The notes below the pieces were generated by a model. The model searched no databases. It saw only the letters and a list, made by a program, of their open reading frames with translations, and had not been told where the DNA came from. The position numbers were made by a program, and so were the translations under genes. Of a stretch of 50,118 nucleotides of DNA, positions 30,563 through 34,499 are shown piece after piece. The first letter of the stretch is position 1. The number at the start of each line of letters is the position of its first letter. This DNA comes from an uncultured Bacilli bacterium (GTDB lineage: Bacteria; Bacillota_I; Bacilli_A; RF39; UBA660): NCBI GenBank assembly GCA_947626695.1, contig CANQTE010000004.1, positions 1 to 50,118 on the forward strand, written 5' to 3'.

Positions 30563-30944
30563 TTTTATTCTGCGGGACTTAATGTTAAACCGGTTAGATC
30601 TAACACCTTTGTTGTCTCGCCATTTTTTAATGTTATCTTTTGTGTATTTGAATGTAATTGAACTATTAGAACACCATCTTCATCTAATGTTCCACTGCCC
30701 TTTGTTTTTGCCTCTGATAATTCCCAATTAATGGTGTCGCCTTTTGTTGCTTCATCACATTTAATTGCTAAAAAATTACCTTTGGCATTTTTTGAAAATT
30801 TAGGGAAACTTTGAACATACTTTGATGTCCCAGTTACTTTATCTCCCTCAATTTGGGCATCTTGTAAATCAGTTACATTCATTCCTAATACTTCGCCCTC
30901 GGGTAGATTTATTGTTACCTTTTGTGAGGGCTCACTAGGGTGTA
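30563..30944. repeat. 382-bp direct repeat, tail copy
   Basis: Identical to 32991-33372 except at two positions (about 30590 and 30890). It starts just before the extension stop codon and ends inside the ACA CCC TAG context of the major tail gene. Confidence 0.97.
30565..30936 (-). CDS. +1 frame C-terminal extension of the major tail protein
   Basis: 123 sense codons in the +1 frame, open from the CCC-TAG at the end of the major tail gene. It starts SEPSQKVTINLPEGEVLG and then holds a beta-rich domain with LAIKCDEATKGDTINWEL. The first ATG (30882) has AGGA directly abutting it, so independent initiation is unlikely. The domain is probably displayed on the tube as a decoration; I cannot assign it to an Ig-like family with confidence. 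The sister copy follows the capsid gene. Confidence 0.85.
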   Translation of the reverse strand, partial: SEPSQKVTINLPEGEVLGMNVTDLQDAQIEGDKVTGTSKYVQSFPKFSKNAKGNFLAIKCDEATKGDTINWELSEAKTKGSGTLDEDGVLIVQLHSNTQKITLKNGETTKVLDLTGLTLSPAE

Positions 30945-31513
30945 TATGGTTTTAATAATCCATCGAGATATGTTTCTGCTTCTTGAACTGTATCGAATGT
31001 TTTATGTTTTTCCCAGTCTCCCTCTTTTAAACCATTAAAATCACTCTCTAGACGCATAACTTTTGCTGATACAGAAGATGTACTAAATTCAGGACTTGCT
31101 CCTTTTGTTTTATTATCACTAGTAATGCCTGTAAATTTAACTCTTGGGAAGAATTCAACTTTATATTTATGTACGTTATTATATAGTTTTGGAATAATAT
31201 GCCCGTATGCTAGTTCAGGAGCCATATCATCAATGTTTTGCGTAACTTCCCCATCTTCAGTAATACTATTTCCTAATATTTCTGAGACAAATTTATCTTC
31301 ATCATCTGCAATCGTAATATCTAGTGTACCATCAATGAATGAAGTATCTGATTCTGCTAAACCATCATTTGCATATAATTCAGCATTTGCGTAGTTTGGA
31401 GCAAATTTTTCATCTACTACTTTTTCAAATTCTGGTACTTTTTCTTTTACTTCTTTTAATTTATCACCATCATGAAAATTATATTTTGCTTTTCTAAAAC
31501 CTATCCTTGCCAT
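30935..31513 (-). CDS. Major tail protein, phi13 type
   Basis: 192 aa. The sequence pattern MARIGFRKAKYNFHDG, then LTEDD-like acidic segments and DMAPELAYGHIIPKLYNN, followed by VEFFPRVKF, is that of the phi13-family tube protein. It stacks as rings to form the tail tube. It ends PYTP with ACA CCC TAG TGA, the predicted +1 slip site, giving 192-aa and about 315-aa forms. AAAGGATG precedes the ATG. Confidence 0.9.
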   Translation of the reverse strand: MARIGFRKAKYNFHDGDKLKEVKEKVPEFEKVVDEKFAPNYANAELYANDGLAESDTSFIDGTLDITIADDEDKFVSEILGNSITEDGEVTQNIDDMAPELAYGHIIPKLYNNVHKYKVEFFPRVKFTGITSDNKTKGASPEFSTSSVSAKVMRLESDFNGLKEGDWEKHKTFDTVQEAETYLDGLLKPYTP

Positions 31514-32990: not shown

Positions 32991-33372
32991 TTTTATTCTG
33001 CGGGACTTAATGTTAAATCGGTTAGATCTAACACCTTTGTTGTCTCGCCATTTTTTAATGTTATCTTTTGTGTATTTGAATGTAATTGAACTATTAGAAC
33101 ACCATCTTCATCTAATGTTCCACTGCCCTTTGTTTTTGCCTCTGATAATTCCCAATTAATGGTGTCGCCTTTTGTTGCTTCATCACATTTAATTGCTAAA
33201 AAATTACCTTTGGCATTTTTTGAAAATTTAGGGAAACTTTGAACATACTTTGATGTCCCAGTTACTTTATCTCCCTCAATTTGGGCATCTTGTAAATCAG
33301 TTACATTCATTCCTAATATTTCGCCCTCGGGTAGATTTATTGTTACCTTTTGTGAGGGCTCACTAGGGTGTA
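32991..33372. repeat. 382-bp direct repeat, capsid copy
   Basis: Partner of 30563-30944, offset 2,428 bases, two mismatches. It spans the whole +1-frame extension plus the shared CCC TAG TGA context at the end of the capsid gene. Confidence 0.97.
32993..33364 (-). CDS. +1 frame C-terminal extension of the major capsid protein
   Basis: 123 codons open in the +1 frame from CCC-TAG of the capsid gene, encoding the same beta-rich domain as the tail copy. Two amino acids differ: one Ile/Val near the start and one Asp/Gly near the end. It lacks a proper ribosome site before its first ATG (33310). A 501-aa capsid-extension fusion is predicted alongside the 378-aa form. Confidence 0.85.
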   Translation of the reverse strand, partial: SEPSQKVTINLPEGEILGMNVTDLQDAQIEGDKVTGTSKYVQSFPKFSKNAKGNFLAIKCDEATKGDTINWELSEAKTKGSGTLDEDGVLIVQLHSNTQKITLKNGETTKVLDLTDLTLSPAE

Positions 33373-34499
33373 ACTTCCTTTTTAACTCTTACAAAGCCAT
33401 CTAATTTGATAGTATTACCACCAGCCATTACTGATGCTCTATAACAAGTGATGCCTTGTTTGAATTTATAGTCAGTTGATTTAGCAATTTCAGTATCACT
33501 AAATAATGTTACTTTATAATTCTTTAATGAACCATAAGCCATGCAATCGAAATTACCTTCTTCATCAGGTGCACTTACTGGATGGCATTGTGAACTAATA
33601 ATATAATGAATTTTATCAATTGTTTTATTGTGAATATCGATATCATGTAATTTTCTTCCATCAGTAGTTCTTAACATAGCGAATGCTTTTAAATCTTCTT
33701 TTGATAGGATTAATACTGCATCTTCTTCTACATCTTCTGTACCACCGTAAGAGAATACGATTTTATCTAATGTATCGTTATCAATTTTATCAATTTTAAC
33801 ATCGTTTTTACCAGTAATTTCTTTTGTATTTTTGAAAATACCCATAAATGACTTTGTACCAGTACCATTTAATAAGAATTCAATTAGTTTTTTCTTTAAT
33901 GCAATATTCATATTGTTTTCAACTTTTGCAACATAATCTTGTGCTGGTAGTTTTTCAGCTTCTTCTGTCATTTCAGCATAAGCCGTAACTTTTACTTTAT
34001 TTATATCAGCATAACCAAATTCAGGTTCAGCATCAACATAATTGCCTTCCTCATCTGTTTGACCACCGGTACCGTATGATTTAACGTAAGCTTCTTGATA
34101 TGATTCGCCACCATCTAATTTATCGATAGTAACTTCATCTATTAAAGTTGAAACTTCGTTAAACTTTTCATTGATTTCCTTTCCTTGATATTTTGGAGTT
34201 AATAATGAACTTGATGAAACAGTTATGCTTCTTTTTTCCTTTAAAGCGTTGGCTTTCTTTTCGATATCAGAAATTTCGGCTTTTCTTGCTTCTTCATCAT
34301 TAACTTTTCTTGCTTCAATAACATCATTATTGATTTTATCAGCTAATGCCTTTCTGTTTTCCATTTTATTAAGATCTTCTAATTTAGCTCTTAACCCTCT
34401 TGCTTCTTCTTCTAATGCTTCTGTATCAACCTCTGTATTTTCATCTTTTAAGGCTGTTACAATTTCTTCTAATCTTTTAATCATTTCTTCTTTTGTCAT
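33363..34499 (-). CDS. Major capsid protein, HK97 fold
   Basis: 378 aa. The N-terminal coiled-coil delta domain (about residues 1-100) is removed by the prohead protease; the HK97 shell domain follows, with SYQEAYVKSYG, AEMTEEAEKLPAQDYV, and ALKKKLIEFLLNGTG. The C-terminus reads GNTIKLDGFVRVKKEVTP. The final ACA CCC TAG TGA matches the major tail gene exactly and is the predicted +1 slip site. AGGGAGAG precedes the ATG. Confidence 0.95.
   Translation of the reverse strand: MTKEEMIKRLEEIVTALKDENTEVDTEALEEEARGLRAKLEDLNKMENRKALADKINNDVIEARKVNDEEARKAEISDIEKKANALKEKRSITVSSSSLLTPKYQGKEINEKFNEVSTLIDEVTIDKLDGGESYQEAYVKSYGTGGQTDEEGNYVDAEPEFGYADINKVKVTAYAEMTEEAEKLPAQDYVAKVENNMNIALKKKLIEFLLNGTGTKSFMGIFKNTKEITGKNDVKIDKIDNDTLDKIVFSYGGTEDVEEDAVLILSKEDLKAFAMLRTTDGRKLHDIDIHNKTIDKIHYIISSQCHPVSAPDEEGNFDCMAYGSLKNYKVTLFSDTEIAKSTDYKFKQGITCYRASVMAGGNTIKLDGFVRVKKEVTP

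Follow-up and report, generated by a model that had tools for sequence, protein, structure and literature searches.

A +1 shift of the ribosome at a CCC codon followed by a stop is a known route to the extension of phage tail proteins, described in SPP1, PhiC0139 and PSA. In SPP1, gp17.1 is lengthened into gp17.1* by an Ig-type (FN3) domain when ribosomes shift at CCCUAA, where the major tail gene stops; the two forms occur in tails at a ratio of 3:1, so that a quarter of the tail proteins are extended, and the extension is non-essential (PMC6316719). In the Lactococcus 936 phage PhiC0139, an MTP-TpeX fusion arising by a +1 shift at a CCC.UAG shifty stop was seen in virions by Western blot (PMC4759559). 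The capsid (cps) and tail (tsh) proteins of Listeria phage PSA are both extended by +1 shifting at CCC, as recounted in a later article (Zimmer 2003, via PMC5009743). The same article describes Ig-like domains as promiscuous additions to phage capsid and tail proteins, made in frame or by a +1 or -1 shift (Fraser 2006, via PMC5009743), and holds the frame of such extensions to be a matter of chance after recombination (PMC5009743).

The window, a stretch of 50,118 nucleotides, carries a prophage-like head-tail module on its minus strand (terminase, portal, protease, capsid, connectors, major tail protein and tape measure), in which the major capsid and major tail genes are both predicted to be extended by a +1 slip on CCC, as in PSA. 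The long forms of PSA gain only ~47 and 24 residues by their annotated ends, with different sequences, whereas the window prophage has one nearly identical 123-codon domain together with its slip signal on both genes, and the same arrangement lies behind the genes of other phages. SPP1 shares the CCC-stop +1 slip that adds an Ig-type domain, but on the tail only, and the consulted sections describe neither a stem nor a mobile cassette (PMC6316719). PhiC0139 shares the CCC.UAG shifty stop and the +1 direction; its extension is limited to the tail and is a larger, BppA-like carbohydrate-binding module (PMC6669499). What is new here is a putative self-contained mobile unit of slip site, hairpin and domain that is shared among many unrelated virion genes and present in two near-identical copies in one phage. 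It bears on an open point in recoding, namely whether frameshifted Ig-like phage extensions lie out of frame by chance or possess a frameshift signal of their own.

Results

Putative slip junctions at the ends of the capsid and tail genes

The HK97-type major capsid gene (minus strand, 33363..34499; PF05065, 8e-26; phrog_10, 1e-18) encodes 378 residues ending in VTP. Its terminus reads GTT ACA CCC TAG TGA, with ACA at 33371-33369, CCC at 33368-33366, TAG at 33365-33363 and TGA at 33362-33360, and the putative slip site T-ACA-CCC-TAG spans 33363..33372. The first-pass annotation had reported that the capsid frame ends ACA CCC TAG TGA and that the +1 frame is then open for 123 codons; the minus-strand sequence confirms both. 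If the T at 33365 is skipped, the +1 frame is open from AGT at 33364 to 32996 and stops at TAA (32995-32993), which gives an extension at 32993..33364 on the minus strand and a predicted long form of 378 + 123 = 501 residues. Stop readthrough was discarded as a route to the extension because the extension is not in frame 0.

The junction has the layout of a shifty stop, with a P-site CCC that overlaps a cognate codon in the +1 frame and a stop codon next to it; CCC TAG is found in this setting at 33368-33363 and again at 30940-30935. CCC is a rare codon, accounting for 15 of 11,539 codons (1.3 per 1000) in the 38 window ORFs, and the window has only two occurrences of ACACCCTAG, one where the capsid gene ends and the other where the major tail gene ends (30935).

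With the extension as query, a 98%-identical copy was found 2.4 kb downstream of the capsid copy, absent from the first-pass annotation and likewise placed in +1 after ACA CCC TAG TGA. It follows the major tail (tube) protein gene (30935..31513, minus strand; 192 residues ending in YTP; phrog_88, 6e-18), whose 3' end forms a second putative slip site, T-ACA-CCC-TAG, at 30935..30944 on the minus strand. The predicted tail extension again has 123 codons (30565..30936, minus strand). The two copies share a 0.38-kb block that runs from TACACCC to just past the extension's stop codon (30565-30944 for the tail copy) and contains 2 differences, both A/G; the DNA outside this block is unrelated between the two. 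A third relative lies elsewhere in the same genome (contig C3:29379-29774, L015), where a 42%-identical domain follows a different 380-codon ORF at ACACCC|TAG.

The extension domain

The AlphaFold model of the extension is an all-beta domain (pLDDT 83.5), and the sequence matches phrog_31690 (1e-10). Fold matches in the PDB were weak, with a best Z of 6.5 and no Foldseek hit at E<=0.001, and were mostly to Ig/FN3-type or sugar-related accessory domains, so that no ligand can be named from these beta-sandwich matches. Three phage proteins with no described function matched the extension by fold at E 1e-7 to 1e-8, and the domain reached no Pfam Ig family. The model and fold search make an Ig-like beta-sandwich probable. 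A decoration or adhesin role would fit the position and fold of the domain.

Relatives of the domain and their partner genes

One scan of 84,980 species genomes with two short peptide patterns, a search that could miss relatives from other habitats, found 58 loci, all on contigs of Bacilli and Clostridia MAGs from rabbit gut ('Lapin', taken from isolate names, being read as rabbit). The rabbit-only origin of these close relatives suggests that the domain has spread inside the gut of a single kind of animal. When 392 genomes of the phylum were searched with a profile, only a few distant relatives appeared besides the window's own copies; relatives overall are nearly all MAG contigs. No relatives of the domain were found in viral_contigs or the phage collection, and none of the capsid in viral_contigs; in the family scan the capsid itself was the sole match. 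A strict DNA pattern gave 7 matches in 370 genomes and 0 in the reversed control, and was too strict in that it missed the window's own site.

Among the 58 loci, the domain lies in +1 after CCC in 47 (46 of them CCC-TAG/TAA), in -1 after an A-run in 7 and in frame in 4. In 45 of the 58, the domain is in +1 and the ORF upstream of it ends in CCC|TAG or CCC|TAA; in L119 this junction lies at the edge of the contig, and in L102 the CCC comes one codon ahead of the stop. The in-frame fusions are L112, L113, L114 and L126. The seven -1 loci (L082, L092, L111, L125, L127, L128 and L130) have a run of 9-10 A; after this run there is an apparent -1 shift, by slippage of ribosome or polymerase, and the GCC hairpin described below is mostly lacking.

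The 47 +1 junctions that were analysed include the two window copies. Their upstream ORFs, mostly head or tail proteins, fall into 14 groups with no mutual blastp similarity, although most partner capsids have the HK97 fold and the groups are not all independent in deep history. Where tested, they were identified as major head proteins (phrog_10, 422, 1328, 544, 247 and 267), a head protein of ~112 residues (phrog 909, which also matches head decoration more weakly), a virion structural protein (phrog 2729) and major tail proteins (phrog 88; 3099/820). By these PHROG matches to major head, decoration and tail families, the domain would be attached to high-copy capsid and tail proteins. The partner group switches at least 27 times on the domain tree (51 labelled rows, with many forks poorly supported). 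Recurrence of the same junction type at these 47 places, behind many unrelated genes, argues that the capsid junction is more than chance.

The stops at the 47 junctions are TAG in 35, TAA in 12 and TGA in 0, against TAA 21, TGA 9 and TAG 8 in window genes, a bias that perhaps reflects an RF1-related preference. In the phage of the closest relative (L073 1-1000), the domain is on the tail gene and the capsid gene has a different, longer extension (PSEPEEGDINSVTV...), also after ACACCC|TAG, so the slip signal would serve more than one domain.

Cassette boundaries

Similarity from cassette to cassette runs from ACACCC to the extension's stop codon. In 69 pairs with unrelated upstream genes and cassettes at least 80% identical, identity at the 5' boundary is ~0.30 upstream, 0.62 at -7, 0.80 at -6 and ~0.87 thereafter; at the 3' boundary it drops to ~0.33 within 6 nt past the extension's stop codon. 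CCC and the following T were criteria for selecting junctions; ACA was not, and it precedes CCC in 30 of the 47. The slip signal thus seems to travel with the domain, as its 5' end, between unrelated capsid and tail genes. This differs from the view of Fraser 2006, as cited in PMC5009743, in that the slip signal would here form the 5' end of the moving unit.

A putative stimulatory hairpin downstream of the slip site

Six nucleotides after CCC at the capsid junction begins a putative stimulatory RNA hairpin (33323..33359, minus strand), in which GCCCTC (33359-33354) pairs with GAGGGC (33328-33323) and, further in, GGTA (33347-33344) with TACC (33333-33330). The tail junction folds in the same manner, with GCCCTC at 30931-30926 and GAGGGC at 30900-30895 (30895..30931, minus strand). 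A different hairpin, GTGA-gccc-TCAC, had been proposed as a possible aid; it is present, but among the 44 distinct junctions it occurs only in the two window copies, and the conserved element is GCCCTC/GAGGGC.

Folding of all distinct junctions placed a stem starting with GCC at 6 nt (18 cases) or 7 nt (26 cases) after CCC. Its forms include GCCCTC/GAGGGC, GCCCG/CGGGC, GCCACG/CGTGGC, GCCAC/GTGGC (up to 8 bp, in L109) and GCCC-gaaga-GGGC. A stem of at least 4 pairs, at least 3 of them G-C, is found at 43 of 44 distinct +1 junctions, whereas 300 rounds of synonymous shuffling gave 13.5 on average and never more than 21; shuffled junctions thus show such a stem in ~30% of cases, because the linker amino acids favour GCC. 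Folding energy at the junctions averages 2.5 standard deviations below that of synonymous shuffles. Compensatory changes are seen at pair 4 (C-G 22, A-U 21), pair 5 (C-G, U-A or G-C) and pair 6 (C-G, G-C, U-A or U-G). Within the window subfamily, stem pairing is 97% and falls to <48% when the strands are slid by 1-3 columns, with double changes at one pair only. The stem is absent from 4/4 in-frame copies and 6/7 -1 copies. This conservation and covariation across relatives are consistent with a stimulatory element. The standard stem is also missing from L097, from the diverged L010 and L060 and from L102 with its early CCC, so the stem may not be essential.

Selection on the +1 frame and the decoding tRNA

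In 19 independent pairs, differences over the first 18 codons after the slip fall 27/13/60 at codon positions 1/2/3, and codons 1-18 read in +1 show 50 synonymous against 31 non-synonymous changes. For the first 17 codons, the ratio of synonymous to non-synonymous changes is 45:29 in the +1 frame versus 16:61 and 1:72 in the other two. The codon-position bias and synonymous excess point to a conserved 123-codon +1 ORF under selection.

One in-frame copy resembles the product predicted for a slip. L117 uses the +1 cassette behind a tail gene that shares 68% identity with the tail gene of L114, and in L114 ACA CCC AGT AAA GCT is read in frame, exactly the kind of product (TP-S-K-A) that a slip would yield; the out-of-frame counterpart, ACACCC T AGTAAAGCC, is found at the diverged locus L010. 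The only tRNA-Pro found was UGG, both in the window's own genome (25 tRNAs, 94% complete) and in the examined loci of two family genomes, which is consistent with weak pairing on CCC.

Discussion

We favour, with a probability of roughly 90%, the reading that a self-contained mobile +1 recoding cassette accounts for the extensions of both the capsid and the tail protein. The cassette would consist, in order, of ACA-CCC-UAG, 3 nt, a stem-loop and, read in +1, the Ig-like domain, whose stop codon closes the cassette. At the end of a capsid or tail gene the ribosome would hold in its P site tRNA-Pro(UGG), a poor partner for CCC, while its A site faces a stop that is decoded slowly, and the downstream hairpin would lengthen the pause or increase the strain. 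Some of the ribosomes would slip from CCC to CCU and read on into the domain, and a minority of capsid and tail subunits might then bear it on the virion surface. The slip from CCC to CCU at a slow stop had been suggested by the first-pass annotation and is supported by the 47 CCC|TAR-type junctions behind unrelated genes, the third-position bias, the in-frame fusions and the single tRNA-Pro found. The basis at the level of sequence comprises the anatomy of the junctions, the duplication, the cassette boundaries, coding selection, stem covariation and spread over unrelated virion genes. From these we infer slippage and its rate, stimulation by the hairpin, entry of the long forms into virions and binding of the domain to something in the gut or on the host. 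We lean, by a little, towards a broader formulation in which the recoding signal is itself mobile: a portable dosage module (slip codon, stop and fixed-distance hairpin) with an adhesin domain, passing from one phage to another, unrelated one in the gut of one animal and kept near-identical downstream of two genes in a single phage, would give capsid and tail one and the same ligand-binding domain in a set proportion.

The extension could instead be a free protein, made by reinitiation at ATG 33310 or at some other internal start, that decorates the virion non-covalently. That ATG is codon 19, the PHROG match begins shortly past it, and most annotators call such ORFs separately. However, 39 of the 47 +1 junctions have no ATG within the first 45 codons, ATG 33310 has no Shine-Dalgarno sequence at usable spacing, and the 18 preceding codons show selection on the protein that they encode in +1. 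Together with the four relatives in which the domain is fused in frame, one of them a 68% match to a +1 user, these points make a free protein very improbable. It is equally hard to credit that the out-of-frame layout is decay or chance, whether an indel-broken fusion or the landing of a non-homologous recombination, with any slippage adventitious. The coexistence of +1, -1 and in-frame versions is what the published chance-landing view would expect (PMC5009743), but 13-14 unrelated gene groups are followed by CCC|TAR and, at a constant distance, a covarying hairpin, which move as the 5' end of the cassette, and the extension remains under selection.

A real frameshift might require the CCC-stop only, the hairpin being a by-product of linker coding or of DNA-level recombination, for instance as an inverted repeat through which cassettes are transferred. 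Descriptions of SPP1 and PhiC0139 give a shifty stop alone, shuffles do produce some stems, and cassettes do move. Such a dispensable hairpin is nevertheless unlikely in view of its near-universal presence at fixed spacing with compensatory changes, and of its loss from in-frame and most -1 copies. PSA argues in the same direction: at the cps site a strong hairpin folds at the same distance, ~7 nt on (z -4.3). The parallel with PSA, drawn in the first-pass annotation, is borne out by its deposited sequence, which has ACACCC|TCC in cps and ACACCC|TGA in tsh, with predicted 3' structure ~5-7 nt downstream.

Under the favoured reading of a mobile recoding cassette, standard gene callers would annotate the extensions as separate ORFs and miss decorated virion proteins. 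The dozens of natural variants, with in-frame and -1 versions beside them, offer material for testing how +1 slippage is tuned, and a short, portable signal through which a minority of capsid and tail subunits gain a domain would also be of use for display on laboratory phages.

The tsh gene of A118 (L139 4140-4230) reads CCC TGA followed by GCCC...GGGC, an arrangement that resembles the window hairpin.
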